Source: Dioscorea cayenensis subsp. rotundata
Lineage: Eukaryota; Streptophyta; Magnoliopsida; Dioscoreales; Dioscoreaceae
Assembly (NCBI RefSeq): GCF_009730915.1
Contig: NC_052475.1
Span: 22,502,285 to 22,566,284, forward strand
Reading direction: 5' to 3'
DNA length: 64,000 bases
The notes under the pieces were generated by a model that was not told the DNA's origin, did not search any database, and worked only from the letters and a program-made list of their open reading frames with translations. Below are positions 4,333-63,962 of the stretch, piece after piece. The position numbers and the translations under genes are program-made. Each line of letters opens with the position of its first letter. The first letter of the stretch is position 1.

Positions 4333-6267
4333 TTGTTATTAATATTAATAAATTATAATTATTATTTTGAAAAAAAATAAATTTTAAATTTTAAATCATT
4401 TAATTTGATCGATATTGATGAAGCGAAACTATGGTTACATCAATTAAAATTTTTTCTTTCCTACTTAATATTTTTTTAAAAAAATTCCTAATCATAAATT
4501 TTGGTCTGACAATTAAAAACCCCAAAATAAATAAATAAATAAAAGAAATAGAGGAGAATATTTTGGACTCTCGGACAAAAACAAGAGCAATTATAGTTTT
4601 CGTACTTCTCGAGAAAACATCGAAACAAAACTACAAAACGCATGCGCCCATCGATTCGTCAAAAGTGGAAACAGTCGCCTTCGCTTCAAGATCTCCGCCG
4701 AATTTGCAAACCAAGGCGATACCACGAAGCTCGAGGACAAGCACGCCATGAATCCCTTCATACCTTCGATCTCCAACTCCGTCCCTTCTTCTCCTAATCC
4801 TCTCTCCATGTCTTCCTCTCTTCCTTTTTTTCTCCGGCTCGCTCCTCTCCGTCAATCTATCATCAGATCCACGATCCCAAATCACACTAGGGCGCCAGCA
4901 TACTCTTGGTTCTCCAAGGTACAGCCGTTGCGTTTTTCTCCAGCTTGATCTCTTGATTGATTTTTTTCTTTTTTTGGTGTTTCTAGCCATCCGGATTGCG
5001 CATTGATCGGCGGGGATGTACTTCGAGCGGTTTCCCCATCCGCGTCTCCGCCATGGACGACGTATGTCTTTTTAATGATGAAATGAGGTTCCTTTGTTGA
5101 TAATCTTGTGAAGTCTTTAATTTTTCTTGTGTATTTTTTTTTAAAAAAAATGATAGGATCCGATGGATGTTTATTCCATTTTCGATGAGAATGATGTGGT
5201 TTCTGGAATGAATTCTTCGTACATGATGTCTTCTAGTGAGGGCGAAGATAGTGATAGCGATCCGTTCCTGGATCCTAACAGGGATGTTGACTTACCGCCC
5301 AGGAAGGATCAAAAGGATATTCCAGATGCTGCATTAACTATGGCTGCGCATAGATTTGCTTCGATCAACAGAGGGCACAGAAAAAGGAGGTGAATGGATT
5401 TCTTGAGTTTGGAATTTTGGTATTTTTGTTGGATTATTTTTAAGATAATGAATATCTTGAAAGATGACACTTAGCTTAGTTTTAGTTGAGATCTTCGTTT
5501 AGTTTCCATGATCAACTGATATAGTGTGGTTGCAATTGTGCTATAAATTTGCAATCTAATAAATTTTCTTTTGCCAAACGCAAGAAAATTTCAAATAAAT
5601 AAATATGATACTGCACTTGAACCTGAGGCTCTCATACTTCTGTTGAAAAAATTTCATTTTGTCGGCAATGAATTGTTTATGAAGTGCTGAAGGTTAGAAC
5701 TATTGTTATGCACTCCAGTTTCAGTTTGGTTTTAAATCAAATGTATTGGATTCAAGTAATTTCAAATTTAAAAGTAATAATTTTACCTAAAAGAATGCTC
5801 AAAGAATTTCTATGTAGTTTCCCTGATGTTTTAAGCTTTACCTTCTGCACCACCTACATTCCCCTCTCTGGGCAGGGGGCACTGAGGCTGAGGATGCCCC
5901 TAATTGAGTCAAATCCACTATATCTGATTTGAGTTCAGCTGAACTCAACCTGATTGGCCACAACATTGAATTGATTTTGGTTAGCTATGATCAAAATTAA
6001 CTTTGTTGGTTAATTCAAAAGGCATGGGTTGACCATGATTAAGTTTCAGATCCTTCTGGACAGGTGCCGTCAATTTGGCAACATATTTTTGAGTTGGTAA
6101 TGCCTTGGGTTAGACTTTAGAGAATCAAACTGTGAAAATCCAGTTGTGATAACAAAAATAACTCTTATGATTGAGTGCTAGATTATACAGCCCGCTTTAG
6201 CAGGCCATACCTTCTTTGTGATCATCAGTGTTTTGTTCGTAATTCTTTTTCTAACACACAAGGTGAA
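4333..6267 (+). repeat. Gene-bearing duplicated block, copy A
   Basis: This 1.93-kb block is nearly identical to 62023-63962 in direct orientation. It includes about 410 bases upstream of a small gene, its three exons, both introns and about 870 bases downstream. Differences are mainly homopolymer lengths (for example intron 1 near 4965) and a few substitutions (for example near 4418, 5457 and 5639). Homology stops sharply at both ends. A LINE-like 3' fragment lies directly to the right of this copy. Confidence 0.93.
4748..5393 (+). CDS. Small acidic protein of unknown function, copy A (3 exons)
   Basis: The exon model is 4748-4918, 4987-5061 and 5157-5393. All introns are GT-AG, all three exons keep one frame, and the product is 160 aa. 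I do not recognise the family. Residues 1-58 are rich in Ser, Pro, Arg and hydrophobic residues with almost no acidic ones, which suggests an organelle transit peptide. The C-terminal part has an acidic Ser/Asp stretch (SSSEGEDSDSDPFLDP), then DVDLPPRKDQKD and a basic end (GHRKRR). The start is the first ATG in this frame. The only upstream in-frame extension would need a non-ATG start. The same protein, unchanged, is encoded by copy B at 62446-63084. That both copies are open suggests recent duplication, selection, or both. The exon model is inferred, not tested. Confidence 0.7.
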
Positions 6268-6505
6268 TCAACGACGAGTTTCCTGGCTAGTTGTCCTCCT
6301 GATTTGCTGCTGTGTGTTGGAGGAGTCCCTCTCTCCTCATCCCTGTGTTTCTGTCTCGTCTCTTAGTCTTTGTTTCCCCTGTTGTGTGCTTTTGTTTCCA
6401 TTTCTAGTGGAGTTGTTTGTCTTTTTTGTTTCTTTGTACTGTTTCTCTCTCTTTTTAATGCAATTGTGGTTTATCCACTTTTTCAAAAAATAAAAATAAA
6501 AAGGA
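6268..6505 (+). mobile_element. LINE 3' end fragment, plus orientation
   Basis: A pyrimidine- and T/G-rich stretch ends in AATGCAATTGTGGTTTATCC followed by ACTTTTTC and an A-rich tail (AAAAAATAAAAATAAAAA). The same terminal motif occurs inverted near 29.02 kb and, weaker, near 19.18 kb, each next to a T run. This is the look of a 5'-truncated non-LTR retrotransposon 3' end. It begins where homology with duplicated copy B stops. Confidence 0.55.
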
Positions 6506-7257
6506 GGGGGGTGCTTCTACTACTAGCCTCTCATATGTATGTATGTATGTGTGTGCATATAAACACCATTAATTTGGGGGCCAAGCACACCACTAGCCTC
6601 TCATAGAAAAAGGATTTACTATGTCAGCTTCGAAGTGGTGCCCTAAGAAGTCTGCCTTAGAATTCTTCCATAGCTAGTGCAAGTATCCACAGTAAACAAA
6701 TCTTAAAACTTCCATCATGTCGACCGGCAGAAGGTGGAACTAGACAATGAAAGAAAAACGCTACATGCGGAAATCTAAGGGCTTCATAGAATTTGCTAAA
6801 GAATATTTGGTTTCTTCCAATAATAATTGAATGTGAAGGCAGATAATTACTACCAATGAAATATATTGTGTCTGTTTTGATTAAACCAAATTCTTCAATG
6901 ATATATATATATTGTTTAGAGATATTGAAAAAGTTAATTATTAATTTGACTGATATAAAAGATTAAATCGCATTGAAAACGCTATTTATGAATTTTAAAG
7001 ATTTGTCAAAAGATAAAATTCTTACAAAATTAATTCTATATATCCTTTGCTTCTTCATATTAAACGCACAAAGAAACTAACCGAGAATCAAATTTTTGAT
7101 GTATAAAATAAAAAAACTTTCATTAACTTAGATTAAAAGTTTCCAACAACTTTTTACATATACGACTCCATATGAATATCAAACAAAGAAATAAAAAAGT
7201 GTTGCGGCCATATACATATATGTACTTAACGACGAAGGAAATAGTAAAAAATTTAAG
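6506..7257. other. Intergenic spacer
   Basis: AT-rich, with no gene seen. A 14-15-base direct repeat, ACTAGCCTCTCATA, occurs at about 6522 and 6593, on either side of a short segment with a GTAT/ATGT microsatellite. The right part would hold the 3' UTR of the kinase on the minus strand. Confidence 0.5.
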
Positions 7258-8304
7258 CTAAATCGATATGAAAAGATCACTGAACCATCCATGGTCGAGA
7301 GCATCCTCTGCACTAATCCTCTTCCTTGGATCCACCTCCAATAGCCTCTTCAACAGATCATACCCTGGCCTTGATAGCTTCGTCGGCGGCACTCTCAACC
7401 GGAGAGTGTTATACCTCGCCGGGCCACCCAAAAAATAGCGAGCCATATCCAACTTATCCAATCCCGGCCATGACTTCAACCCAATCGTACCCATCACCAT
7501 GAAAATCATATCAAGCTGATCAATCTTCGACTTCCCAGGAAACAATGGCTTCCCCGTCACCATCTCCGCCATAATACAACCCACCGACCAAACATCAATA
7601 GCCGCGGTATACTTCTCATCTCCGAGAAGAAGCTCCGGCGACCGGTACCACTGAGTAACCACAGTCTGCGATAACAAATCATATGCTGTTCCTTCTTCTT
7701 CGTAAAGATAATGAAAACGCTTGCCGAGGCCGAAGTCACAAATCTTGAGCTGCCGCATGTCACCGACGCCGGTCAAGAGGAGGTTGCCGGGTTTCAAATC
7801 ACGGTGGAGAATCCCATGAGAGTGAAGATAAGAAACGCCTAGAAGCAGTTGGAGCATGAGCTTCTTCACCATGGCTTCTTTCAAGTTCCCTGACGCCAAA
7901 ATCAAGTGAGTCCTGAGATCCGTGACTGCCCGGTCCATGACGATGAAAACAGAGTGGAGGGCATCATCGATGATGAATTCTCTGAAACGGATGATGTTCG
8001 GGTGGCGACACGATGATAAGATGTCGATCTCGCGGAGAGAAGTGTAAGGGATGTCTTCAATATGATCTTCTGCATAACGGACGAACGTGGCTTGCTTGAC
8101 GGCAACTCTGTGGCCGGTTCTGAGGTCTATGGCTTCAAAAACACAACCGTAGGCTCCTTTGCCAAGCATCTTCACTATCTGGTAGTTTGCAATTGTGCTT
8201 TTCCGGCGATAATCGGCTTCAAGTCGTCCACTTTCCAAATCCATAGTCTCCATTGATATGTATTTTGTGTGCGCCATGTCACCGAGAGCAAGAGAGAGCG
8301 CCAT
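7258..8304 (-). CDS. Intronless CDK-like Ser/Thr protein kinase (CDKG/CDK11-like)
   Basis: A single 348-aa open frame covers a complete kinase domain. Visible landmarks are the glycine loop GKGAYG (48-53), Lys70 in AVK, a cyclin-binding-helix-like PYTSLRE (86-92, Glu92), HRDLKPGN (167-174, catalytic Asp169), DFG (190-192) and a WYRSPE motif (219-224) in place of the usual WYRAPE. The PYTSLRE helix resembles the PITSLRE helix of CDK11/CDKG kinases, so a cyclin partner is plausible but not shown. The segment between DFG and WYRSPE is longer than usual. Lack of introns suggests descent from a retrocopy. The start is ambiguous: Met1 and Met10 lie in two copies of a 27-bp in-frame duplication, and Met18 or Met21 aligns with the start of the dead paralogue at 16.2 kb. 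A GA-rich leader lies just upstream. Confidence 0.88.
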   Translation of the reverse strand: MALSLALGDMAHTKYISMETMDLESGRLEADYRRKSTIANYQIVKMLGKGAYGCVFEAIDLRTGHRVAVKQATFVRYAEDHIEDIPYTSLREIDILSSCRHPNIIRFREFIIDDALHSVFIVMDRAVTDLRTHLILASGNLKEAMVKKLMLQLLLGVSYLHSHGILHRDLKPGNLLLTGVGDMRQLKICDFGLGKRFHYLYEEEGTAYDLLSQTVVTQWYRSPELLLGDEKYTAAIDVWSVGCIMAEMVTGKPLFPGKSKIDQLDMIFMVMGTIGLKSWPGLDKLDMARYFLGGPARYNTLRLRVPPTKLSRPGYDLLKRLLEVDPRKRISAEDALDHGWFSDLFISI

Positions 8305-8983
8305 GTCACCGAGAGCGAGAGAGCGAGAGAGAGAGAGAGCAAATGGAAAATTTGGAAAGTTAGTTGTAATGATGAGATTATATAGTATTATTTGGGCGGG
8401 AGTGTTTGAATGGATAGCTTGGAGTTGAAGGGATATTATTATTTTAGTTAACTTCTAAATTTCTATCTAATATCATTTTAGAAAGTTAGAAAAAAAAAGG
8501 TTTAAAAATTTTGGAATTATTTTTGGATAATATTTATATTTAGTAAGGAATATCATGACTTTTTAATTAACACCTTTTAAATATCAATAAAATATATTTA
8601 AAATTTAAATTTTAAAGTTTACATTTCAATCTAAACTTATTTTATAATGATGGACTTCAAAACAGAAAGTTTAAAATTACTATTGTTTTTTTAAATTATT
8701 CTCTATTTAAGTTATAGTATAAATTTAGGAAATCATTTCATAATTTAAAGACTTAAAAAAAATCTATTTATTTAGTAATTTTATGACAGAAATCAACTTA
8801 TTTTAACTCTAAATCTTAATCTTGATACAACTCTAATTATATGTAAAACAAATTTTTATATTTTTATTTTTATTTAAATTTATTTATAACCATGGGCTTC
8901 AAAACAATATATATATATATATATATATATATTTTCATAAAAGGATAATAATCATTTCGGAATTTAAAAAAAAAAAAATCGGT
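8305..8983. promoter_or_regulatory. Kinase upstream region with conserved patch and (TA)n
   Basis: This is the 5' side of the kinase gene (minus strand). A GA-rich run lies at about 8305-8340. A patch at about 8395-8430 (GTGTTTGAATGGATAGC and GGAGTT) is also found upstream of the paralogous pseudogene at about 16312-16340, so the promoter region was copied with the gene. A (TA)n run is at about 8906-8931. No core promoter element can be assigned with certainty. Confidence 0.5.
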
Positions 8984-9060
8984 TGTGTATCATGGATCAC
9001 TTGAAAGCCCAAAAGTTTTTGACCCAAAAAGGCTTTTCAATATATAAATATAGTTTTTTT
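8984..9060. repeat. Kinase-upstream repeat, copy 1
   Basis: ATGGATCACTTGAAAGCCCA followed by a short related tail recurs near 17388 plus 18521 (split by a solo LTR) and near 20638. This copy shows the uninterrupted ATCACTTGAAAG site into which the solo LTR at 17.4 kb inserted in another copy. Confidence 0.65.
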
Positions 9061-9804
9061 ATAATTTTATTTTTACATTAACTGATAATGCATTTGAATC
9101 TAGAAAAGTCCTTTTAAAAAAAAAATTCAAGGAAATAATCCTTAGAAATTTCGTTTCTAAGGAGGACTAATTAAGGAATATGCAGTTAATGCCAATAACA
9201 TATAAATATATAATCCAATGACGTCTAGGTAGATAACAACAAATGAAAATGGATATGTTTCCTCAAACCAAATGCTTCAATAAGTTATCTATGTGTGTAT
9301 ATATATATTTAAAATATATTATTTCAATAAATTATACATTTATCTACTTTTATCTAAAGTGAACATAGCTCGTTTTTATATTGTTTTGTAGTATTGTACT
9401 ACCTAAAGAGAGATTTTGATTATTATTTGTTCTACATTGTTATTATTAAAAGCATGAATTATTGATTTGAGCGTTAAAAAAACACATTAACTCGCTCACG
9501 TTGAGTGGTTCAAATAATTAGAGACATTAACACTTGTGTAGCTAGCGTACAGAATGATGAGAGTTCAAATTCTCGTTGAAAAATTAATTCAAATGTAGTA
9601 GAAATACTAATATGTGATTGTCGTTTTTTTTAAATATTAAAAAATATTATTTATAAAATTTATAAGAAAGTGAAAATTAAACCTTTCCCCCGAAAAGTAA
9701 ACAAAAATCAACAAAGAATAAAAATTCAATGTATAATTACAAATAATTTAAATATATTTGCATTAAAATTCTCCAATGCAACACGAATTTATGTATATAC
9801 AGCT
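9061..9804. other. AT-rich spacer
   Basis: No gene or clear element seen. Low-complexity A/T runs only. An open frame at 9670-9885 has no recognisable domain and runs into an inverted repeat. Confidence 0.5.
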
Positions 9805-9934
9805 CCAAGTAAGTCCCTAGTTCTGGACTATCATATGATGCCACGTGCCCACATAAAAAAATTAATTACAATAGAAAATAAATAAAATGGACATATGGCA
9901 ACATGTGATAGGCCAGAACCAGGGACTTGCCTGG
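9805..9934. repeat. Inverted repeat / hairpin-forming element
   Basis: The left arm (about 9805-9848) and right arm (about 9891-9934) are near-complementary. AAGTCCCTAGTTCTGGACTA on the left pairs with the reverse complement of the right arm, which begins AAGTCCCTGGTTCTGGCCTA. Mismatches are few and the loop is about 42 bases. It could be a small foldback element or a hairpin-RNA source. There is no evidence of function. Confidence 0.65.
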
Positions 9935-10019
9935 TTTTCAAACTAGGAAGTTGAACTCTCCATGCTAACATCAAAACAAATTATAGTCACAAAAAAGTTG
10001 GCAACAATTAGAGGAAGAA

Positions 10020-10410
10020 AGGATCACGTAGGGCATGCTTGAGAGCGGCCTCTGTAGTAATCCTTTTCCTTGGATTCACCTCCAACAACCTCTTCAACAG
10101 ATCATACTCTGGCCTTGATAGCTTCCTCACCATCACTATCGGACGGAGAGTGTTATACCTCGCTTAGCAACCCAAAAAATTGTGAGTCTTACCTAACTTA
10201 TCCAATCCTGGACATGACTTCAACCCAATTGTACCCATCACCATGAAAATCATATCAAACATGATCAATATCGATCCCAGCTCAAAGAAACAACACCTTC
10301 CTTGTCACCATCTCCGCCATAATACATCCCCCTGACCAATTATCAATAGCCGAGCTATACTTCTCTCCAAGAAGGAGCTCCGGTGATCAGTACCACTTGG
10401 TACCCATAGG
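10020..10410 (-). pseudogene. CDK-like kinase pseudogene, C-terminal part
   Basis: On the minus strand this aligns by eye with the C-terminal half of the intact kinase at 7258-8304, from about the WYRSPE motif to near the C-terminus. It carries stops: the Arg after WY is TGA, and another stop follows a Leu-Gly position near 10164. It also has small indels. Its N-terminal half lies at 15781-16240 in the right order and strand. About 40 codons between the two parts (roughly residues 176-215 of the intact kinase) are missing, lost beside the LTR element that now separates them. Confidence 0.85.
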
Positions 10411-11493
10411 GGTATCCGGAATTATATTGTTTCAAAACAATAGAATTAAGTAAAAATCATTAAGTAAATTCATGAAGATCTCCCAATTAAACTTGGTACG
10501 ATACTCCAGCAAGACACAACAAGAGTTCCAACATCATCATGCAAAATCTGAAAATCATTTCAAAACAAAACCAATACATCATGTAAGAGTTAAAAGAAAC
10601 CAACAAGGATTAGCTAGGTTAGCCCACTCACTTGAAATCTCTAGCTTCCCCCCTTACTTCAAAGGATCTAGGAAGAAACCAAAAGAGAAAAAAATGGAGA
10701 CCAGATCTAGGGTTAAGATCAACAATTGCATTAAAAAAAATTAAGGAAAATCCAATATTTACTTACCAATAACCATCCACAATCAAAGATGGAGAAAGAT
10801 CTTAATTAGGGCTAGGGTTTGCAACACATGAATGTGAGATCGAGTTGGAGGAGACAAAAGGTTAATATTGTAATCTTGGGCTACTACAGTAACTGACATC
10901 TACAGTAATGGCTTCTATAGTAACAGGCTTTTGTAGTAATGGGCCAAAAAAATTGGTTATTACAATCTACCCCCCCCCCTTAAGAAAAATTTCGTCCTCG
11001 AAATTTTCTTAGACTCTAATATTTTACTTCTATGGTTCCACAACTATGATAGATTGATTACACATAAAATGAATTTCCACTGGGTTACTACACTCAACTA
11101 TACTACAAATTGGATCCAGTAGGAGTCATCAAAACACATGAATCAAAATATTGAACTATAAAACTCAAACCAAAGCTTTAGTTTTTAGTTATTTGAAAAT
11201 CTCTAATACCACTTAATTTGTCACGCCCCGAACCCGGCCTAGTTGGACCCTACAAGCGAACAAACGGCCGTAGACCCATAGGGCGTGAACCCTATAAGTC
11301 TGCAAGGCCTCAGAACCTGATTCAGAGAAGATAAAAATAAATCAATGAAGTTACAAAAGTACTTTTACAACTTAATATTATTCAATAATATAAAAGAAAG
11401 AGTATTTTCAGAAAAATTTCGAGAAAGCGTCAACACTAGTGGATCCATCCTAGCACTGGCTGAACATCACTAGAATTAAGCACATTAACCTTT

Positions 11494-12778
11494 GGGGTCG
11501 TTTGGTTCACGGTAATGATATATTACTGCGTAATGAGATTACCGTGGTAATGAGATTACCGTGGTAATGAGATCATGAATATTATATGCATAGAATATGG
11601 TGGTAATTTATGATAACCATGTTTGGTTGAAAATTCTTAATACATAATAATCAACTTGGTAATGTTCTAAATTTCCCAAAATACCCTTGTGTCTACCCAT
11701 TTTGTGCAAGTTTAAATTTAAAATAAATAAATCTATACTGGCCGTTTGGTTCGTGGTAATGACATATTACCACGTAACGAGATTACCATGGTAATTTTTG
11801 GTTCGCGGTAATGTAGAAGGATTACCATGTGTTACGTGGTAATCTGAAAATATTACCACGTTTGGCATTGTATCAGTGGTAATCTGTATGGTAATATCAC
11901 ATTACCAACTTATAAATATTACCAAGAAAGTGGTAATCCTATTACCACCAAATTTGGTGTCTATCTTGGATTACTGTAGTAATCTTATAATTTTTTATAT
12001 TTTAACAAATTGATTACCATGAAAACCAAAGTAATAAGAGTTCCCAACCAAACATTGTTATATTAAATTACCGCAATATTCCCACCCATATAACATTCCC
12101 ACTCATATTACCATGGTAATCTCGTTACGTGGTAATATGTCATTACCACGAACCAAACATGTATAATCTACTCTGAGAGCGTTTCAATGAACAATTTTAT
12201 TTTTTTATAACATTTAAGTTTTTATTTATATTACTTATAATATTAATAATTGAAAAACATTAATTACACCTAATTATTTATGTAATAAATGTCCATAAGA
12301 CCTTTGAAATCTAAGTCATAAAATAGTTTCCATGGTAAGAGTTGTTTAATTATATTATTTAATATATGATATTGCCTCAAAACTTCTCACAAAATTTTAA
12401 TAACTTCGATACGAAGCCAAGAAAAATACCTATTTTTGAATAAAAAATAAATAAATTTTCGAAGTTCAACATATTCCCAAAATAATGTTATTTAAATTTT
12501 ATTTTTTTATCCAACTAATAAAGTATGAAAATTATTATTTTTAAACAAAGGACATATTTATCCAAAAAATATTTTAAATTACCACCCAATTAGTAATCCA
12601 ATATAACCACCTATTTTGTTGGTGATGGGATTACCAAGTTTCTTAGTAATCTTTCAATGTTGCTAATCACATATTACCATCAATATTACCATCTTCACCA
12701 ATCCAAACGTGCTAATTTGAAAAGATTACCACGAAACAGATGGTAATGTTTTCACATTACAGTGAATCAAACGGCCCC
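11494..12778. mobile_element. MITE-like element nested in the LTR
   Basis: The ends are inverted: GGGGTCGTTTGGTTCACGGT on the left and the complement of GGGGCCGTTTGATTCACTGT on the right. The interior is AT-rich and full of GGTAAT/ATTACC motifs. No open frame and no clear target duplication were found. GGGGCCGTTTGG-type ends are common on plant DNA-transposon MITEs. The superfamily is undetermined. Confidence 0.65.
11744..12158. mobile_element. Second MITE-like inverted-repeat element nested within the first
   Basis: The two ends are near-perfect inverted repeats of about 50 bases: GTTTGGTTCGTGGTAATGAC on the left, its complement ending at 12158, each continuing through ACGTAACGAGATTACCATGG. 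It sits inside the larger element 11494-12778 and shares the GGTAAT motif with it, so one may have inserted in a relative. It is non-coding. Confidence 0.75.
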
Positions 12779-15700
12779 ATAGAGTCCAGTACCTGAAAAG
12801 ATAGAAGAAGAGAGGCTGAGTAACCCGGTTCCTCAGTGAGTGGGGTAAAAAATAGGTGGAAAACTTTTGAACACTTTCAAATACAGAAAAAGTTTATTCC
12901 AACCTTTCCAAACATCAGTAAAAACCACAAGTAAATAAACGTTAGGCAAGAAACCATGTACAAGTACGAATATGTAAACATAAGTTTCCAATGCACAACT
13001 TTGCAAACACTTCTCAACATCGGCATTAACTAGATATGAAATCCAGAAATACAAATCTTGGAAATATAGAAACTTATAAACATGATTTCAAACAAAATAT
13101 CTCCAAATTTACTATAGATAACAGATAGCCGTTTATTATTACTGAACGGACACGGTACCAGATGACCATTTATTACTACCCAATGGATACGGTATCATAT
13201 ATATGGCCGTTTACCACAAAACGGACAGGGTACGAAACTGTAATCTCGATTTTTACAAAAATTCTTGTTTACAAGGTCAGTATTTAACCCCTTCTGACAG
13301 GGTTGAGTACAGTTTATTTGGAGACTAAAACTATTCAAACAAACTTGTAGTCAAAAAACAGAAAGTTCGCAAATTTTTTTCAGATATTCGAATAAACAGA
13401 AATTTTGAATTTCAGAATTCTACTTTAGGGGAAAGTAGATAAACTGAAATCAAGTATTGAATTTGGTAAATAAATTACCAACTCATTAATACATACCAAA
13501 TCACTCTCGAAAATCAAGAGTAAAACTACTGTATAACCGAATAAAGTAATAAGCGAGATTAAATATGAGCAAAACTATAATAGGGAAATAACATAACAAG
13601 TAAATTTTACACTCCAACACATAATTACATGATTGTTAAAATCCAACAATTCCAACAATTACAACAATTCCAAATACAAATAACCTCAAGATTCCCATTA
13701 TCAAGCTGGATTACATCTAACCATGTTTACCAACCTAAAAACACATAGAACCCAAGGTATAATGCAAGATAAACACTTAGTTTATTATATTACATCCCAC
13801 ATCTCTCAGCATAAAAACACCTCTAAATATGCCTCATTCCATAACACATAACTCCAAAAACATAATATCAAATGCAAAGATATTTTGTAGAAACAAACTT
13901 AGGACAATCCTGAACATTTCCTTCTTTAATTCTTTCCCAAATTCAACCTCCAAGAGTGCGAAAAAATCCTTATAAATCTGAAAAGTCTACATAGAAACAT
14001 CATCCTGCACAAGCCCTCTTTAATAGATCATAAATCAAAATCTACAAATCCAATGAACTTGAAATTTTCCAAGTTAAAAGTTAAGGTGATAAGAAATATT
14101 TTCTATATTGGGCACTTTGTCTAATTGCACTTAATAAGTCTGGAGTTTCCCTTTAAATCTGCATGTCTACACAGAAGTACCTCAAGGACATATCAAATTG
14201 AATGGATCGTTTCGCATAGAATATATGCCCAATAAATATGAAATTTGGCAGGAAGATAGATTAAACAATTCGATACAACTTTCCAATTTTAATCTTCCAC
14301 AAATTCTGTCTCTATGACCTTCGAATGTTGGCCACAATTTCCAGCCACTCAAGGTCATTTCAAGATATCAAGATACATGCATTAATCTAGTCTTAAAGCA
14401 ACTCTCTTAACTCAAGTCATGCAAGGATATGAGATATCATTTTCAAAGGTTTCTCAATCAATTGAAATTTACGAGTTTAAACAATCATCCAAAATTTATA
14501 TAACCATAAAATTTCCTCTAACCACAGACCTTCACTTCAAAAATACCATCATTTTCCCCAACAATCTCATAATCACAGGGTCATTGCTTACAAGCAATTC
14601 TTAAAGGATTATGTCAAACACTTGGCATTCATTATTCAAATATTCACACATGAGTTCCAACATAACCAATAATGATCAATTTACATACACCAATTCTCTC
14701 TAATAATAAAGATGTAATAACACTAAAGTAAACTCACCAATTTTTCAATTTAACAAACCTAGGACTATTTTCCATTCCAATTGTGGATATAGGGAAACTA
14801 AAGTATTCTTTCACCAATCTACAAATCTAAAATAACAATTCAAACACACCTGATATAAGCATATATACCCATGCCATTAACATTAATATAAAACTCTCAC
14901 ACACACATCACCTCCAACAATTCATAAACTCATATCATCATATTCTAACAATCAATTGGTCATTGCTCACATTAAATACTCAAGAGTATTTCATTACCAA
15001 CTTTCCACACATAAATTCTGGCATAATACATGAAAACAACCCATTTACATAAGACATTCTTCAAATATTTTTGTTTCACCCAAAATGGGAAAATCACCCC
15101 ATTTAATACATGAGATCCACTAAATTTTTCCACATAAATCACATTGATTCTAACTCATAAAGGTCTTCAATTTCCACAACCCAAAACTAAGATCGAGCAT
15201 GGTGTTTGTTATCCAACACAAAATGAATCTTAGCAAGTAGAATAATAATGAGCCAAAATATATAAATAAAGCATCGAATATCAAATAAAAATTATTAAGT
15301 AAATTTATGGAGATTTCTCAATTAAACTTGGTATGATACTCCAACAAGACAAAACAAGAGTTCCAACATCATCATGCAAAATCATTTCCAAACAAAACCA
15401 ATACATCATGTAAGAGTTAAAAGAAACCGATAAGGATTAGATTAGCCCACTCACCTGAAATCTCTAGCTTCCCCCCTTACTTCAAATGATCTAGGAAGAA
15501 ATCAAAAGAGAAAAAAATGGAGACCAGATCTAGGGTTAAGATCAACAATTGTATAAAAAAATATTAAGAAAAATTGAAGGTTCACTTACCCATAACCATC
15601 CACAATCAAAGGTGGAGAAAGTTCTTAGGGCTAGGATTTGCATCACATGAATGTGAGATGGAGTTGGGGAGACAAAAGGTTAATATTCTAATCTCGGACT

Positions 15701-15780
15701 GCTACATGCTACAGTAACATCTTCTACGATGCCGGGCTGCTGCGGTAATTAATGGGGCAAAAAAAAAACTAGTTATTACA

Positions 15781-16240
15781 AGGATGTTGTCGGGTTTCAA
15801 ATCATGGTGGAATATCCCGTGAGAGTGAAAATAACCCAAGCTTCGGAGCAATTGGAACATGAGCTGCTTCACCGTGGCTTCCTTCAAGCCCTTCGGTGAA
15901 GAGGCCATGTGAGTCTTGAGGTTGGTGACGGCCCACTCCACGACGATGAAAACGGAGTTGAGGGTACAATCGATGATGGATTCTCTGAAGCCGATGATGT
16001 TTGGGTGGCGACAAGATGATAAGATGTCGATCTCGTGAAGATTAAGTGTCAGGGATTTCTTCATTTTCTTCAAATGTGACTTGCTTGACGGCAACCATTT
16101 CAACGGTTCTGAGGTCTTTGGCTTCAAAAACTCAGCCGTAGGCTCCTTTGCCGAGTTTCTTCACTGTTTGGTAGTTTTCCACTGTGCTCTTCCGGGCATG
16201 ATCGGCTTCTTGTTTGCTTTCCCAATCCATAGTGTCGCTT
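15781..16240 (-). pseudogene. CDK-like kinase pseudogene, N-terminal part
   Basis: On the minus strand this reads MDWESKQEADHARKSTVENY, then KKLGKGAYG, and then TGA where the intact kinase has Cys (GCV). After that come VFEAKDLRT, AVKQVTF, a frameshift near 16050, EIDILSSCRHPNIIGFRE, and finally HHDLKPDN in place of HRDLKPGN. It matches residues about 21-177 of the kinase at 7258-8304. The stop, the frameshift and the changed HRD Arg make it dead. The LTR element begins directly after the Asn of the catalytic loop. Upstream DNA (16.3 kb) shares a patch with the intact gene's promoter, so this is a local duplicate. Confidence 0.88.
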
Positions 16241-16340
16241 AAAGATGGATGAGAATTATATATGTACCTCAAAGGTAGGAAGGTTTGCAATAACGATGAG
16301 ATGATTTTGGGCGAGTGTGTTTGAATGGATAGCATGGAGT

Positions 16341-18520: not shown

Positions 18521-18611
18521 ACTTGAAAGGCCATAGTGTTTATAGAAATATATTTGACTTCCTAACTCATTTGACCCGAAAAGACTTGTCTTTATATAAA
18601 CTAACTTTTTT

Positions 18612-18640
<29 letters not shown>
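18521..18640. repeat. Kinase-upstream repeat, copy 2 (right part)
   Basis: It continues the repeat broken by the solo LTR: ACTTGAAAGGCCATAGTGTT, then TAGAAATAT and AACTCATTTGAC as in the copy at 20.64-20.75 kb. An (ATT)n microsatellite of about eight units follows at about 18625-18648. Confidence 0.65.
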
Positions 18641-47300: not shown

Positions 47301-48659
47301 ATTCCAATTTTAAAGTGTGGAGATTCTTCATGTCAACTTCATCGTTAAATTCAGAATACCTAGGTCTAGGGTGGGAGCTGTTCCTCTTCATGCGTGGAAG
47401 AGCGAGGTTGTAACTCCTCACGAACCAACATAGTCGGGATTACGCAACATCATCATCTCTCCATCATGTGTGGCTTTACCATCTAAATCACCATCTGCGG
47501 TGAGATCTACTCAGGTTTTGCCTTTGACTTCATCTTGATTCCTCACCAAAAACTATAGTACGAATCATGGAAATCATCATCCTCATCAACCTTTTTCCCC
47601 CTATCAGGTTCCCATGACTACGGTTTTCCTCCAAGTCGCATCATCTCGACCTCCTCTTCTTCCCTCAGGGTACATATTTTAATAGTGCGGGCCCAATAGT
47701 TTCACCTAATCCCACACCTTCATCATTGCAAACATCAACACCAATACCATGGTCGATGGCCTACCACGTGGGAAGATTAATGCAAACATACACCTTTTTA
47801 CTACAATCAACGAGACATTGACATTGTTAGGGGCATCTAAATCGGTTTTTGATCTCCTTATACCCTTTCTCACCACTTGTTGTATCTAACCACCAAAATG
47901 ATGACCCTTCAATATCTAAACAAAATTCCTTGGCCATACTTATTAGCTCTAGTTTGGAAATTTTGTCAGAACAACAATAGTCTATGTATCCAACGATGCC
48001 CTCTATTTCATCCAACTTGTAATGCAACCTTATCTTTGAATAGCTCGAGCATCGGCACTATTAACAAATGTAGTGAAAGTTAAAAGGAGATCACATACCA
48101 AGAGGCTATTTAATACAACTTCGAGTTTGCATCCACACATATGTCTAAAAGTCTATCATCAGTTGCAACCACAATTTACTTCAATCAATTAAAAACATAT
48201 AGCAATAATTAAAACACATACCAATAATTAAAATCTTATCTTGCACATATTTTTAATACAACTACAAACTGAACTTTGGTTGCGTGTTCTCCGAGTCAAG
48301 TGCAATGATTCTCTGCACTAAGGAGAGAAGTGGTCGAACCGAGGGCCGGGGCCTCTATCTCAATAGCAAGTCAAACGGTGACTCTTATTTGAACCATAAA
48401 CCTTGGTTCAAAATATCAAAGCAAGGTACATATATACTCCAGCGAGGGTTTTTGTTCAAGCCAATATTCAAACCAAACAAACAAGTTGCTACTGAACTTT
48501 CGTTATCTAGTTAACATTGATGGCATGATATAAACATTACACAATAAATAAACCCACCCAAATCAGTTCAGTTAATGAGTACACAAGAAAATTACATATC
48601 AAACAAGTTTACCAGTTAACTGAGTTATCTCAGATAACATTGCAAATTAAGCATCCACT

Positions 48660-49020
48660 GATTTAATAACAATGATAAGAGCTATCAATTGCACGTGAAC
48701 TCACAAATTAAATGGTAGACACTACACATGAGTAAAAAAAAGGAAGCAAAATATTTTAAGAAAGATACAAGTGCATTCAAACAAGTGCAATATCTATTAA
48801 TTTAATAAGAATGATAAGATCTATTAGTTGCATGTGAACTCACAAATTAAATGGGGGACCAAATTAAATGGGGGACACTGCATATGAGTAAAAAAATAGA
48901 AGCAAAATATTTTAAGAAAGATACAAGTTCATTTAAACAAGTGCAATATCTACTAATTTAATAAGAATGATAAGAGAATTCAAAGACACATTAACTTAAA
49001 AATTAAATGGGGATCCATAT
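48660..49020. repeat. Tandem repeat, about 135-155 bp, two to three copies
   Basis: The strings AATGATAAGA, GTGAACTCACAAATTAAATG, ATGAGTAAAAAAA, AGCAAAATATTTTAAGAAAG and AAACAAGTGCAATATCTA recur in order from 48670, 48810 and (partly) 48965. It lies in the left arm (5' side of the transposase) of the 7.5-kb MULE. Confidence 0.75.
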
Positions 49021-49828
49021 GGGTCCCAGGCAAACACTACTCATGTGAAACAAAAGTACAAGCCCTACAAACAATACTCATAATAAAGTTGCTACAATTG
49101 CATCCAAACAAGTTATAACTAATTACTAAAACTATAATATTTACCACAATTACAACCTCATCCATGCAATAGAGCGAGTAAAGACTAAAAACCACCCCAA
49201 ACCCTACCTTCGATTCATCTTCAATTTCAAACTTCACCGGACCAAATAGTTCCAAAATGACTTGGATTTCAAAGAAGAGCACTTACGGTAGTGGGGCTTC
49301 TTCTCCTCGGACCGTACCTCCGATTATGACCCATTTTCACCGTGAGCTTTCTTAGATTCAATGGCGACCACTTGCGGGCAACCACAAGCTTCTCTTCCTC
49401 GCTTATGACCAAGACCAACACCGTCACCTCTTCTTCATCACTCTTCCCGTTTTCAAAGCCAAACAATGAGGATTGTATCCTTCTTTCGTTCTCAAGGTCA
49501 TACATTTTCCTTCTTTCATTCTCAAGGCGAAAGGGGCTCTGGCGCAGCGTGGCGAGCATTGTTCGACACGTGACTTTCTCCATGGCTGACGTGGAATTAT
49601 AATGTTTTCACATGAAAATTTAATGACTTGGCAGACACACTTGGATTTGAAAAGTTTGAGTGTGCAAAAACCGCCTCCACATCGTACATATGGGTCGGGA
49701 ATTGTTTGGAGTGGCCTGCGATGAAAGAGAATCATACATTTGGAGTAACTGCGTTTTGATCTAAATCAAAGTTGGGATACCAAAAAAATACAAAATCAAA
49801 GTTTGGGTACCTTCCAAAAAATTTACTC

Positions 49829-50225
49829 ATGCTGATACAATGTGAACTTCGCATCAATATCATTCAGACAAAGTTATTTGGCAAACCTGTAATAATTTAC
49901 TCATCGAAAATATTCAGGTGTTACTTTTAAATGAAAATTTCGCACATATTTCCCAATATCCCATTATTAATAATTAATTCTTAAAAATATATATAATTAT
50001 TGTTAGTGTTAGATGTTTTGTTGTAGGCAGTAGGAGAGACAGCACATCCCACCAAACAAACTGCACCACCTCTGAGTTCTGAAACTAAATATACATCAAT
50101 CCTTCCATCCAATACTCATAACAATATTGATTTTATTCACTTCTCACAAATTCTAAAAAAAAAAATTAATAACACAAAGAAAACCCTTCAATATTACCAT
50201 TAATAAATTTTAATTCAACCAAAAA
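49829..50225. other. Short spacer
   Basis: AT-rich. No gene seen. Confidence 0.5.
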
Positions 50226-55979: not shown

Positions 55980-56039
<60 letters not shown>

Positions 56040-56070
56040 CTTCAATACTTCGATGTTGGTTTTGTTTTCA
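55475..56070. other. Mannosidase 3' flank and (ATT)n microsatellite
   Basis: The 3' UTR would lie in the first few hundred bases. 55981-56039 is an uninterrupted run of about 20 ATT units, which alone creates an open frame of poly-Tyr. It ends about 30 bases before the left target duplication of the next MULE. Confidence 0.8.
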
Positions 56071-57673
56071 AATTAAATAGAGTAAGTATGACTGGTGGTC
56101 ACAAATGTTTCGTAAGTATAACGTTGTGGTCACATACGTATTTTTTGTAACGATATGGCCACTAAACTTGTCTCCGGTCACACTCATGGCCACAATTTCA
56201 TGTTTGGGGTCTTTTTCCGGCGAAAGTGCTGAAGTGGCGTCCGACGTGCATTATCTATTTTAAAAAAGATCTTAGGTAACATTCCACCTCACCACCCTTT
56301 CTCTGCCCACTGCCACGTCAGCTGAGAACTTTACCATTTCGTTCATCAGCCCCTTCTCATGTCCCGAAGATCACACTAATCTAAACCCTTGTCCGAGCGC
56401 CCCCATTTCTCCTCCCAATCTGAGATTGCCTCTCCATGCCATCAGCCCTTCCCGTCCGGTGATCTCCTCGACGTAGACTTCTGAACAGATCTAGCATCAC
56501 CACGGGCAGAATCCCAGTAAAAGCATTGGTGAAGGTAATAATTTAGGGATTTTAGGTTGATTGGTTTTGCATTTTATTTATTTTTTTTTTTTAGTTTGAT
56601 TGTTGTTCTATATTAGTTTAAGGTTGGAACTCCTAGAAATGAATTAGTAGTTTTGGAGATGGAGATGAGAGTTTAATTTATTTTCCCTAAAGTGATTTTT
56701 TTAATCTGAAAAGGCATGGGTTTTATGTGTTATGTTGTGGTTGTGTTGGTGAACTTACATTTTGGAAGGCAAGGTTTTCGTTGTTAGTCATAGTACTCAT
56801 AAGGAAGATGCTTCTCTTTCTAATGTGACAAACATCTCAGTGACAATAGACATGATTCACTAAAGCCTGGAATTTATGTTTTATAGCATTAATTTAGTTT
56901 TTAGATTGATGTCCCCTAGTTTTGTTTTTTATTCAAATTCGCTAAATCACCAACCATGGCTTATGAATTAAGGATGTGAATGAAACCATAATGAACTCTT
57001 TAAATTTTTTCATTACTAGAAGTTATTTCTTCATAATTTGTTGGCATATATTAGTTTGCCAAGTATAACATCTTCATGATTGAAAACATATAAACATTCA
57101 AATTGTCAAGCATGGCTTGTCATTTTGATCTTATCTGCATCAAGGGATCCAAACTTTGAACTATATGTTTCATAATTTTCTCAGCTAACATAAGTTTGTG
57201 AGTTTCTCATGGATCATGTTGGAATTGTGTTCGTGTTCTTACACTAAACAAGTATTAGCTTTTTTCCTATCAGGCTTAATTTCTTGCTTCTTTGAAGTCA
57301 TGGAGACCATAGTCTGAGTTGGTTTAGAATTATTTTGTTATCTCTTATATTAGCTTTATTTTCCCTAAAGTGATTTTCCCCCCATGAGTTCTGTTATGCT
57401 ATATTAAATCTCTTTATTTCCCCAAAACTGATGATTTATATATCTTTGTCATTAAGGTTTTCTCTGTTTTCTTGGTTTGCAACTTCTTCTTATTGTTGTA
57501 AAAATTGTTATCTCTTTTTGGTACTGCATTTTCCAAACAATTTTAATAACAGAGAATTAAATGTTTTCATTTACTATTGCTTGTGATCCTGTTGCTTGTG
57601 ATCGACATGCCAAATTAATATTTTGTTGTTTTTATTAGCAATTGAAATTGTATTAAAATACATCAGGTATAGT

Positions 57674-59608
57674 ATGGAAGAGGTGCTAAATAGTGGTGTG
57701 CCAGATGAACATCCAATTGAGGAGGATGACTTCATTGATTCTGACTATGATATCCCTTCTGGTGATAAGAACTTCCAGCAAGTTTTGTATGAACGAAATA
57801 GTGAAAATAAAGGCAGCAGAGATATCCCATCTTTCCCTCAAAATAGCACAGTAATAGAAGGACTTGTTGGAGAAGAAAGAGAGTCTGCTAGTGATAATTC
57901 TGAGGACTTGTTCACAGAACCAGAAACAGATGATGATGGTCACACTAGGTTTGTAGAGTTTAATGAAGAGAAGGAGATGTATAACCCTAGGTTAAGGGTT
58001 GGGTTGGTATTTAGGGATTTTGATCAACTAAAGAAGGCTTGTAGAAACTGGGGGATTAAGAACAGATTTCAGCTATGGTTCCCACAAAATGATAGAAAGA
58101 GAGTGATCTGTGCATGCCACAACAAACAATGTTCTTTTAGGATTTATGCAGCTCACATGAGCAAAGACAATCCATCAGGTATGCAGCTGAGCTCATGCAA
58201 ACCAACCCAGGTAGCACAGTAATTTTGTGGAGGGATGAAGGTGTCTTCAAATGGTTTTATGTCTGTCTGAAGCCCTTAAAGGATGCATTCTGGTCAGGTT
58301 GTAGGCCATTTATAGGATTTGATGGATGTTTTTTGAAATCTCTTTATGGTGGTCAGTTGTTGTCGGTAGTAGGGATTGACCCCAATGATTGTATATTACC
58401 CATTGCTTATGCAGTAGTGTTGGTTGAGAATGGAGATACTTGGACATGGTTCATGGATCTTTTGAGGGAAGATTTGGAGATCTGGAACATTAGATATCTC
58501 ACCATAATGAGTGACCGACAAAAGGTTAGCTGTATGTTTAAACATTTTCTATTGATAGTAACTGTCATTTAATTTTTGAATTATAATTACAGGGTTTAAA
58601 AAGGGCTATCAAGATATATTTCCAGATGCTGAACACAAAAATTGTGTTCGACACATGTATACTAATTTCAAGGAGAAATTCAAAGGGAAAGCACTAAAAG
58701 ATTTTTTATGGAATGTTGCGAGGGCTACTTATGTTCAAAGGTTTAACTATTGGCTTGGAGAAATAGAGAAGGTGAGTTCAGAAGCAAGAAGATGGTTTGA
58801 TCATGAAGATAGACCTCATGCAAGTTGGACTAGGGCGTTGTTCACAACCTCAAGAAAGTGTGACATCCTACTCAATAATATTTGTGAATGCTTTAACACA
58901 TACATACTTGATACAAGGGATAAGGGAATCATCACAATGCTTGAGATGATCAAGGTGAAACTGATGAGAAGAATGAAAACAAAAAAAGGAAGAAATGTTG
59001 AAGTACAAGGGACGCATATGCCCAAAGATCCAAAAGAAGCTAGACAAGATAAAGGAAGATGGGCAGTGCTACATCCCAGACTTCTCTAGTGGGCCCAAAG
59101 TGTAGATCATATTAGTGGGAGGGTCCTTTATTGTAGACATGATTGACAGAACTTGCACGTGCAGAAGATGGGACTTGACAGGTTTGCCTTACCCGCATGC
59201 AATCAGTGCTATTTATGGAAATGATCAGCAACCAGAAGATTATGTGCATGATTCCTATTTAGTTTCAACATATCTGCGGGTCTATGATCACTACATAAAC
59301 CCCACCAATATTGAAGAGATGTGGCCAAATGTAAATGATGGCACACAAGTGATCCCACCGCCAATTATGAGAAGAAAAAGGGGAAGGAAAGCAACATCAA
59401 GGAGAAAAGAACCTGAAGAGATAGAAAATGCCTTCAAGGCATCAAAATTCAATTCCATACCTTCTGGGTTAGGCAAACAAAAAATTAATAGGAAGGGGTT
59501 AAGCAAAGGTAGGTGTAGTGTATGCCATGCAATCGGCCATAACAAAAGGCATCATGAGAAAGTATGTATTTTGTTATTTAGTTCAGCTGAGTTCAAATGC
59601 ATTAGTTG
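57674..59608 (+). pseudogene. MuDR-type MULE transposase with internal deletion and frameshift
   Basis: The start MEEVLNSGVPDEHP is followed by an acidic region. The MuDR DNA-binding domain follows: NPRLRVGLVFRDFDQLKKAC, then RNWGIKNRFQLWFPQNDRKR, C.C...QCSFRIYA. It ends abruptly near 58178 and continues in another frame with YAAELMQTNPGSTV, so some 80 residues usually found between are missing (deletion plus shift). The catalytic core reads FDGCFLK, GIDPNDC and MSDRQK. An intron (about 58525-58592, GT-AG) leads to HKNCVRHMYTNFK and NNICECFNTYI. A frameshift in an A run near 58986 and a stop follow. The SWIM finger reads CTCRRWDLTGLPYPHAISAI, with Tyr where Cys is expected. A C..C....GHNKRHH knuckle-like end also lacks a Cys. 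It is inactive as read. Confidence 0.85.
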
Positions 59609-60344
59609 AATGATTTTAAATATCATCAATTTTTTTTAAATATGTTTTTTATAATGTCAGGGGATTGATAATGCACCTGAACCTGCACCTTCAAGCGTTG
59701 GCCGAAAAAGACAGAAAATACCTCATGTAATTTTCTCATATATAACTTGTTAAATAATGGAAGCTAGTTTGTGTTGCATTAATTTATTTGCATCTTTGTT
59801 TGCTTCACAGAGAAGAAGCAATCAGGAAGTCAATCTAGAAAATGTCTCAGTTGGTAGTATGCAGCTGCCAATTCACCAAGTCAGCCCTATGATCTCTTAG
59901 GCATCCAGCAGTCTCAGACAAGGCAACCAAGTCAAATTACCAACAAAGGGCCAGTATTAAATGTCAGCATAAGCATGTCTTCCCATGTTAGTGTGGCTAA
60001 CATGGGAAATGTGATCAATTGCACAATGCCAACTCAATCTCCAACAAGAGATAGGGCTTCTTCCTCAGTCATGGATGGTGGAAAGGAAATGGAATGTTTT
60101 GATGATGGAAAACTCTGTTGATATTTAAATTATGAACTTTGTGAACTAGTAGTAACATTTTATTTTGAGTCAATGTCTTTTGGATTTGTTATGAAGTTTC
60201 TTTTAAGCACTGTCAGTTATGTATTTTGTTGGATTTGTTATGATGAACTTTGTTGTAAGCACTGGATTTTGAGTCAATGTCCTTTGGATTTTGAGTTAAT
60301 GATGAACTTTGTTGTCAGCAGATTTATATTGTGCTCATTTATTC

Positions 60345-60725
60345 CCAGGTTTCAGTATATTTGTATTCCCAGGTTATTTGTATTTTCAGGTTTTATCAAC
60401 AAAGCATATTTGTATTATGCTAAATTATTACGAGATTTCTGCAACTTAGTATATTTGTATTCCCAGGTTTCAGTATATTTATATTCCTAGGTTTTATCAA
60501 CTAAACATATTTGATTTATGCTAAATTATTACTAGATTTCTGCAACTCAGTATATTTGAATTCCCAGATTTTATCAACTAAGCATATTTGTATTATGCTA
60601 AATTATTACCAGATTTCTGCAACTCAACATATTTGTATTCCCAGGTTTCAGTATATTTGTATTCCTAGATTTTATCAACTAAGCATATTTGTACTATGCT
60701 AAATTATTAACAAATTATTACCAGA
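60345..60725. repeat. Tandem repeat of about 75-115 bp near the right end of the MULE
   Basis: TTTATCAACTAAGCATATTT followed by GTATTATGCTAAATTATTAC and AGATTTCTGCAACT recurs at about 60383, 60493, 60569 and 60670. TATTTGTATTCCCAGGTTTC spacers occur between some copies. It is non-coding, downstream of the transposase. Confidence 0.8.
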
Positions 60726-61639
60726 TTTTAGTAAATCTGTTTGCAGATTTTAGCAACCCATGATGCAAATTTTTTTACATACAAGTCTGCAGACTTATAT
60801 TGTGCAATTTTTTTAAAATTGTAAATTGGTATTGGCAGTGCAAACATGTATTTTTTGCAATCCATTATGCAAATTCTTATGAAGTAAATTGGTATAGTAA
60901 AAAATTTCTCATGTGAAGAATGACAAAAAAAAACAAGATCAAATCCATGAGTGAAATAATAATCCAAAACAATCTCACAATAACACAAATGAAGTAAACT
61001 GACAATCTCACAAGTATTCATTCAAAATAAGGTTAAATTTCAATCTCACAATCATTTCACAAGCCTTCTAAACCTACAAGCTCTCTGTGCTAAACTCCAT
61101 TACAAACAATCTCACAAGCCTTCTAAAACAACAAATCAAGATCAAACCCATGAGTGATGCCCTAGTGTGGGCCGAGTAATGCTCGACATTGGGCGGAGTC
61201 ATGCTTGATTCTAGCCAAAGTAGCACACAAATCTTGCTGGAGCGATGTCCTAGTCTGACCAAGAGAAAAGAGTGCGTCATACTGGGCGAGAACAAGGTGG
61301 ATCGTCTGGCCGGAGGGAACGTTGTCCTAGCCCTAGCTCTAATTTGATGAATGAAGCAGTAGGGATGGTTCTCAGCTGACATGGTTGGCTGACGTGGCAG
61401 CGGGCAGAGAAAGGGTGGTGTGGTGGAATGCCACCTAAGATCTTTTTTAAAATAGACAATACACGTCGGACACCACCTCAGCACTTTCACCGGAAATAAC
61501 CCCCAAACATGAAATTGTGGCCATGAGTGTGATCGGAGACAAGTTTAGTGGTCATATCGTTACAAAAAAAACGTATGTGGCCACAATGTTATACTTACGA
61601 AATATTTGTGGCCATTAGTGATACTTAACCAATTAAATA

Positions 61640-62022
61640 ACACTTTTTACTCCGTTTTATCCATCAACCATGTTATCATGAAACTAGCACTTTTTCTAAT
61701 AGTAAAATTCCTCTGTCCTGTCTATAAATTTTCCTCTTTTTTTTAAAAGAAAAATATATGTTTTGATAAATTTGGCATATTCTTGGTTACCGGTGTAATA
61801 AAATAATGCCTTTTCACACTAGACTGCTAATATGACATAAATAAATTTGAGATAAATAGTTACGGCCAAAAAAAAAATAAAAAGAAAAACACTAAAGATA
61901 AATAGATGTAGTTATCTTTGAAAATTGAGATGATACAAATTACATCTTGTTTTACCGGGGGAGAACAATTATTTCCTCGCTAAATGCAGTGTGTGACAGT
62001 CACATGCACAAAAATTTTATGA
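61640..62022. other. Short AT-rich spacer
   Basis: This lies between the right target duplication of the MULE and the start of duplicated block B. No gene seen. Confidence 0.5.
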
Positions 62023-63962
62023 TTGTTATTAATATTAATAAATAATAATTATTATTTTGAAAAAAAAATAAAGTTTCAATTTTAAATCATTTAATTTGAT
62101 CGATATTGATGAAGCTAAACTATGGTTACATCAAAGAAAATTTTTTCTTTCCTACTTAATATTTTTTTAAAAAAATTCCTAATCATAAATTTTGGTCTGA
62201 CAATTAAAAACCCCAAAATAAATAAATAAATAAAAGAAATAGAAAAAAAAAAAGAATATTTTGGACTCTCGGACAAAAACAAGAGCAATTATAGTTTTCG
62301 TACTTCTCGAGAAAACATCGAAACAAAACTACAAAACGCATGCGCCCATCGATTCGTCAAAAGTGGAAACAGTCGCCTTCGCTTCAAGATCTCCGCCGAA
62401 TTTGCAAACCAAGGCGATACCACGAAGCTCGAGGACAAGCACGCCATGAATCCCTTCATACCTTCGATCTCCAACTCCGTCCCTTCTTCTCCTAATCCTC
62501 TCTCCATGTCTTCCTCTCTTCCTTTTTTTCTCCGGCTCGCTCCTCTCCGTCAATCTATCATCAGATCCACGATCCCAAATCACACTAGGGCGCCAGCATA
62601 CTCTTGGTTCTCCAAGGTACAGCCGTTGCGTTTTTCTCCAGCTTGATCTCTTGATTGATTTTTCTTTTTGGTGTTTCTAGCCATCCGGATTGCGCATTGA
62701 TCGGCGGGGATGTACTTCGAGCGGTTTCCCCATCCGCGTCTCCGCCATGGACGACGTATGTCTTTTTAATGATGAAATGAGGTTCCTTTGTTGATAATCT
62801 TGTGAAGTCTTTAATTTTTCTTGTGTATTTTTTTAAAAAAATGATAGGATCCGATGGATGTTTATTCCATTTTCGATGAGAATGATGTGGTTTCTGGAAT
62901 GAATTCTTCGTACATGATGTCTTCTAGTGAGGGCGAAGATAGTGATAGCGATCCGTTCCTGGATCCTAACAGGGATGTTGACTTACCGCCCAGGAAGGAT
63001 CAAAAGGATATTCCAGATGCTGCATTAACTATGGCTGCGCATAGATTTGCTTCGATCAACAGAGGGCACAGAAAAAGGAGGTGAATGGATTTCTTGAGTT
63101 TGGAATTTTGGTATTTTTGTTGGATTATTTTTAAGATAATGAATATCATGAAAGATGACACTTAGCTTAGTTTTAGTTGAGATCTTCGTTTAGTTTCCAT
63201 GATCAACTGATATAGTGTGGTTGCAATTGTGCTATAAATTTGCAATCTAATAAATTTTCTTTTGCCAAACGCAAGAAAATTTCAAATAAATAAATATGAT
63301 ACTGCACTTGAACCTGAGGCTCTCATACTTATGTTGAAAAAATTTCATTTTGTCGGCAATGAATTGTTTATGAAGTGCTGAAGGTTAGAACTATTGTTAT
63401 GCACTCCAGTTTCAGTTTGGTTTTAAATCAAATGTATTGGATTCAAGTAATTTCAAATTTAAAAGTAATAATTTTACCTAAAAAGAATGCTCAAAAGAAT
63501 TTCTATGTAGTTTCCCTGATGTTTTTAAGCTTTTACCTTCTGCACCACCCTACATTCCCCTCTCTGGGCAGGGGGCACTGAGGCTGAGGATGCCCCTAAT
63601 TGAGTCAAATCCACTATATCTGATTTGAGTTCAGCTGAACTCAACCTGATTGGCCACAACATTGAATTGATTTTGGTTAGCTATGATCAAAATTAACTTT
63701 GTTGGTTAATTCAAAAGGCATGGGTTGACCATGATTAAGTTTCAGATCCTTCTGGACAGGTGTCGTCAATTTGGCAACATATTTTTGAGTTGGTAATGCC
63801 TTGGGTTAGACTTTAGAGAATCAAACTGTGAAAATCCAGTTGTGATAACAAAAATAACTCTTATGATTGAGTCTAGATTATACAGCCCGCTTTAGCAGGC
63901 CATACCTTCTCTGTGATCATCAGTGTTTTGTTCGTAATTCTTTTTCTAACACACAAGGTGGA
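62023..63962 (+). repeat. Gene-bearing duplicated block, copy B
   Basis: This is the direct-orientation counterpart of 4333-6267, with about 99% identity by eye. Indels are mostly in A/T runs (for example 62230, 62661, 62830 and 63481). The last 40 bases of the window after 63965 are no longer alike, since copy A continues into a LINE fragment. Confidence 0.93.
62446..63084 (+). CDS. Small acidic protein of unknown function, copy B (3 exons)
   Basis: The exons are 62446-62616, 62681-62755 and 62848-63084. The exon sequence encodes the same 160 aa as copy A at 4748-5393, and all splice sites are kept. Introns differ only in homopolymer length. About 420 bases upstream are shared with copy A, so both copies carry the same near promoter. 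Further upstream, copy A follows Ulp1-transposon DNA and copy B follows a MULE, so their regulation could differ. I do not recognise the family. The likely layout is a basic, Ser/Pro-rich presequence, an acidic middle and a basic C-terminus. Confidence 0.7.

Follow-up and report, generated by a model that had tools for sequence, protein, structure and literature searches.

Mutator-type elements duplicate a 9-bp target when they insert, and gene-bearing DNA lying beside transposons can be copied during break repair in plants. Among the VANDAL elements of Arabidopsis, part of one account (PMC5735166) gives YAGTATTAY as the motif of VANDAL21. For apparent duplicates in genome assemblies, part of another (PMC9516828) reports that false duplications in vertebrate assemblies arise chiefly by heterotype duplication, and that they can be recognised by half depth, by gaps between the copies, by discordant reads and by one-copy k-mers. 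Here, we analysed a window, i.e., the whole stretch of 64,000 nucleotides from Dioscorea cayenensis subsp. rotundata (GCF_009730915.1, contig NC_052475.1, positions 22,502,285 to 22,566,284, forward strand), in which a gene-bearing stretch occurs in two near-identical direct copies and in which copy 1 is bordered on its left by transposon-like DNA that stops precisely where the copy starts. A first-pass annotation of the same DNA had taken the repeated stretch for a discrete block. We tentatively favour, at somewhat below an even chance, a larger recent direct duplication whose edges were cut by transposon insertions and whose copies are two loci.

Extent and divergence of the repeated stretch

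When the window was compared with itself by BLAST, the best off-diagonal match was in direct orientation and joined the following two stretches, as confirmed by alignment:

4333 to 6270, plus strand: copy 1 of the duplicated stretch.
62023 to 63965, plus strand: copy 2 of the duplicated stretch.

The match covered 1951 columns at 98.257% identity, with 13 mismatches and 11 gap openings (E 0.0), and the offset from copy to copy was 57,690 to 57,695, i.e., a period of ~57.7 kb. The annotation had described a near-identical block present twice at this spacing in direct orientation and of recent common origin, and both statements are borne out; its block ends (6267 and 63962) fall 3 bases short of the BLAST ends. 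Direct repeats of this kind may fairly be expected to be liable to unequal exchange, as it had also proposed. MAFFT, run with another gap cost, returned 17 mismatches and 9 gaps, in an alignment that takes in upstream DNA, two short introns and ~880 bp past the three-exon stop of the gene described below. By region, 8 of these mismatches lie within 229 bp at the left end, 8 past the gene and 1 in introns 1-2, with 0 in coding sequence. Inspection by eye showed that four of the 17 (4970 and 5834-5836) come from gap placement in base runs and that those at 4553-4554 form one compound change, leaving 11 clear substitutions. Eleven to thirteen substitutions per ~1.94 kb correspond to a divergence of ~0.6%. 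Plant substitution rates are ~0.7 to 1.3e-8 per site per generation or year, and with such rates the split of the copies would date back roughly a few hundred thousand generations or years.

Coding potential of the two copies

Each copy contains one gene, for which the following features were read from splice sites, frame, exact exon matches and alignment (a slash marks a splice point):

4748 to 5393, plus strand: copy 1 gene, with exons 4748-4918, 4987-5061 and 5157-5393 including the stop (splice sites, frame).
62446 to 63084, plus strand: copy 2 gene, with exons 62446-62616, 62681-62755 and 62848-63081 plus the stop (exact exon matches, alignment).
5390 to 6262, plus strand: possible intron 3 of copy 1, with donor AG/GTGAAT and acceptor CTAAC..ACACAAG/GTG (sequence reading).

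When intron 3 is retained, the three-exon frame of copy 1 comprises 483 nt and 160 amino acids. The stop codon of this frame overlaps the good-looking donor AG/GTGAAT, and splicing there would end exon 3 of copy 1 at 5389; the acceptor-like TTCTTTTTCTAACACACAAG/GTG lies at the other end of the block, which stops 8 bases past it, and the equivalent of the possible intron in copy 2 ends at 63957. The predicted C-termini with intron 3 spliced are RR and an immediate stop in copy 1, and RRWIMIYSS and a stop in copy 2, and given the base of copy 2 at 6266, exon 4 of copy 1 would read RRWINDEFPG and a stop. The claim of an unchanged 160-residue protein is consequently correct on the three-exon reading (0 coding mismatches) and fails if intron 3 is spliced, the predicted proteins being equal only with this intron retained. 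The absence of coding mismatches is unremarkable: at the rate of the core non-coding DNA (5 clear substitutions over 1226 sites), ~2 would be expected in 483 coding sites, as computed from mismatch positions after those due to gap placement had been dropped by eye. From these predicted frames, the unchanged protein is no sign of selection.

The 167-residue product predicted for the spliced copy 2 had no Pfam match up to E 1, and its one PDB match was at chance level (E 0.72). Searches with the 160-residue protein yielded 48 pattern matches in a prokaryote collection (genome_contigs) and 9 in a virus collection (viral_contigs), with 0 confirmed in either, which says little for collections without plants. 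The serine-rich start of this protein resembles an organelle targeting peptide.

What sets the edges, and rival origins

The edges of the two copies involve four features:

1 to 4332, no strand assigned: right part of a transposon-like element with an array of TGTTTAA motifs and terminus GGGAAAATTACATG; its last base is followed directly by copy 1.
4333 to 4341, plus strand: putative 9-bp target-site duplication, right-hand copy, TTGTTATTA (from the sequence).
63961 to 64000, plus strand: GATCA then TGATATACTC, a weak candidate, seen through 35 bases only, for a 5-bp target site and the start of a long terminal repeat (LTR)-type insertion in copy 2.
6271 to 6505, plus strand: DNA to the right of copy 1, which is either native exon 4 with 3′ untranslated region or the 3′ end of a 5′-truncated long interspersed nuclear element (LINE) with an A-rich tail.

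At the left, 1-4332 forms an element of its own, reaching the edge of copy 1 or nearly so. Counted on both strands, TGTTTAA is found 26 times within it (6.0 per kb), compared with 15 times in the 49.8 kb of 6271-56080 (0.30 per kb) and 2 times in 56081-61628; 17 of the 26 are forward, all from 410 to 2635, and 9 are reverse, the last at 4234. Internal tandem repeats are also present. The terminus of the element is given as GGGAAAATTAC..., and copy 1 starts at the base following GCATGTAATTTTCCC, which gives a terminus GGGAAAATTACATGC when read inward. Copy 1 opens with TTGTTATTA, whose 9 bases are the length expected of a Mutator-type target duplication, and they stand single at 62023-62031 in copy 2, the presumed empty site, behind a left flank ending CACAAAAATTTTATGA. 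Only the right end of the element is within the window, and the left-hand TTGTTATTA would fall outside. The element would be MULE/VANDAL-like (MULE, Mutator-like element). A literature search on its terminus string found no match, and a Peptidase C48 (Ulp1) domain, expected from a glance at one open reading frame (ORF), received no support from Pfam. By its VANDAL-like array layout, 1-4332 also provides a lead for an anti-silencing type of element.

At the right, copy 2 leaves the match after GATCA, the next bases being TGATATACTC, which begin with TG, and 35 bases remain to the window end; the corresponding empty site in copy 1 would be AATCA at 6266-6270. Such a 5-bp site with TG behind it weakly suggests an LTR-type insertion in copy 2. 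These last 35 bases have no match above shuffles in 1-63900 (52 of 100 shuffles as high on the plus strand and 70 of 100 on the minus strand), nor in the right flank of copy 1 at 6271-8500 (73 of 100 as high). This latter flank, ACGACGAGTTTCC, may be the native last exon of the gene or, by its resemblance, a truncated LINE end; the hairpin before the A-rich tail has z = -2.03, with 11 of 200 shuffles as stable. Note that further to the right of copy 1, at 6522-6605, a 14-bp direct repeat (ACTAGCCTCTCATA) surrounds 56 bp with a TATG microsatellite.

The explanation that we favour would begin with a larger recent direct (tandem-like) duplication of period ~57.7 kb, of which the two stretches are the part visible in the window. 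A transposon would later have inserted in copy 1, ~415 bp upstream of the ATG of the gene, and a second element probably just behind the gene in copy 2, and these insertions, not the duplication breakpoints, would set the 1.93-kb limits. Both flanks in question, left of copy 1 and right of copy 2, would then be insertions, with homology resuming past them outside the window, and the copies would be two loci of one haplotype. Indeed, 1.93 kb is a lower bound because, with this period, only 1-6310 and 57691-64000 can pair in register; the first of these is taken up by the element (1-4332) and the block (4333-6270), and no more of a larger unit could have appeared in the window. The view of a discrete 1.93-kb block as the unit was not supported, as its left edge resembles a transposon end and its right edge is seen through 35 bases. 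Overall, the feature is of an ordinary kind, most likely a recent duplication or else two haplotypes joined in assembly, with size and edges probably set by later insertions and the window end.

Several points weigh against this explanation. The right-edge case rests on 35 bases, in which TG has a 1 in 16 chance, and for each presumed insertion, the opposite end and the second copy of the target site would fall outside the window. Of the 44 ORFs in 1-4332, 8 were scanned against Pfam, and none of these gave a match above cut-off. A LINE-like right flank of copy 1 could place the right-edge event in that copy instead. Finally, an allelic pair would look the same.

An allelic pair is what heterotype false duplication would supply, with two alleles of a heterozygous plant joined in one contig and transposons present or absent between the haplotypes. 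Two plant haplotypes often differ by such substitutions and insertions, and the ~0.6% of substitutions with insertion differences on each side resemble this situation. Moreover, copy 2 carries five one-base gains in short base runs (homopolymers) at 63480-63548, within 65 bp, which are probably consensus error; such clustering was matched in 36 of 20000 random placements of 11 indels, the indels having been placed by hand and the 65-bp width chosen after they were seen. These gains suggest a locally poor consensus, but a true duplicate could have them too, and the 64,000 bases contain 0 N, although a gap between copies is a typical sign according to the part of PMC9516828 considered. We regard this explanation as rather unlikely, but an assembly artefact is, as first proposed, a main alternative.

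A small dispersed duplication, in which ~1.94 kb was copied between sites (e.g., as filler in double-strand-break repair by synthesis-dependent strand annealing), would make the edges true breakpoints beside transposons. Both edges are sharp, and the flanks of copy 2 are without match to those of copy 1, both for the last 35 bases and for 61629-62022, which does not match 1-4332 (27 of 50 shuffles as high on the plus strand, 25 of 50 on the minus strand). However, a left edge that meets a transposon-like terminus to the base needs a coincidence or a linked event, and the left (3800-4345) and right (6255-6900) flanks of copy 1 have no 9-mer in common. We consider this origin unlikely.

Two versions of an older duplication may be taken together. 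In the first, which appears distinctly improbable, the transcribed core of an older pair would have been rewritten by ectopic gene conversion over 57 kb, and each copy would now be losing its last exon in its own way (copy 1 by a stop at the start of exon 4, copy 2 by an insertion). In the second, the core would have been recently homogenised by gene conversion, with older divergence left at the left edge. Mismatches are indeed denser at the left: the best change-point split assigns 6 to the first 113 aligned sites and 11 to the other 1817 (18 of 5000 permutations as extreme), and the left 229 bp carry 8 against 8 in 1702 sites elsewhere (Fisher p = 1.9e-4). In contrast, one adjacent pair among the left-hand mismatches may stem from a single event, another two belong to the compound change, the left stretch is AT-rich and adjoins the presumed insertion, and there is no third copy. 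This version, too, appears distinctly improbable.

Carriage of the gene by a transposon (Pack-MULE, Helitron) or as a retrocopy can be dismissed as highly improbable: a MULE and another transposon-like element do lie nearby, but the introns are kept, the MULE inverted repeats enclose 56080-61630 and not the gene, and the flanks of copy 1 lack a shared 9-mer. In particular, introns in both copies rule out a processed retrocopy, and a gene outside the inverted repeats (the MULE ends at 61630 and copy 2 starts at 62023) rules out Pack-MULE capture. A simple 1.9-kb insertion with target duplication was rejected on the same flanks without a shared 9-mer, and a LINE-primed chimeric copy, suggested by the LINE-like look of the DNA right of copy 1, is not favoured, as the block holds upstream DNA judged untranscribed and no target duplication was found.

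For raw windows in general, these results call for caution, as later transposon insertions and the window end can determine how large a duplicate seems and how sharply it is bounded. Should the copies be true loci, an uncharacterised plant gene has recently changed in copy number, together with the rest of the repeated unit; should they be alleles, one gene too many is counted.

Neighbouring features and comparison with known systems

The remainder of the window contains one complete transposon:

56080 to 61630, plus strand: MULE, with terminal inverted repeats of ~240 bp and a 9-bp target duplication (AATTAAATA) at 56071-56079 and 61631-61639.

The terminal inverted repeats show 90.8% identity over 240 bp (self-BLAST, alignment), and transposase domains are spread over several ORFs (DBD_Tnp_Mut, E 9.9e-13; MULE, E 4e-10), with SWIM below cut-off (17.9 vs 19.6 bits). 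Tandem repeats occur inside the element at 60354-60716. As far as seen, it is a neighbour outside the duplicated stretch. Transposon DNA had been expected beside each copy, which is supported for copy 1, directly adjoined by the transposon-like 1-4332; on the left of copy 2, this complete MULE does not abut the copy but ends 392 bp away. A possible second element at 42280-49839 has inverted ends of ~214 bp, between which the ORF at 46202-46783 shows a weak MULE domain that stays below cut-off (E 0.022), and its end regions contain no direct repeat of at least 7 bases.

The domains found among the genes of the window were Pkinase, SOUL, DUF538 and GH47, which, together with the MuDR-type elements, point to a plant host. 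Of the genes placed between the copies by the first-pass annotation, SOUL, DUF538, the kinase and, through GH47, MNS3 were recovered, and the sole thing seen for ‘USP’ was a MYND finger at 28042-28413, below cut-off (E 0.0098). A single-ORF kinase gene lies at 7258-8304 on the minus strand, with similar stretches at 10034-10397 and 15781-16233, one of which has a partial kinase ORF (15702-16127); 7258-16233 resembles a local duplication of a kinase gene that is older and has decayed. No RNA family at gathering score and no tRNA were detected in the window.

Compared with the VANDAL elements of Arabidopsis, as covered in part of PMC5735166, the element at 1-4332 differs from VANDAL21 in its motif, TGTTTAA, with YAGTATTAY occurring 0 times on either strand, and from VANDAL in that the 8 scanned ORFs out of 44 gave neither a VANC-like nor a transposase domain; it is alike in its dense short motif, mostly in one orientation, and in its tandem repeats. 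Relative to heterotype false duplication, again within the part of PMC9516828 considered, the locus is unlike in having no gap between the copies and alike in allele-level divergence and in a likely consensus-error patch. Finally, in contrast to recent direct or tandem segmental duplications of plants, its true breakpoints are outside view and most of the presumed unit is outside the window or without a partner inside it, but it resembles them in its near-identical direct copies, including introns and flanks, and in its transposon-like edge.

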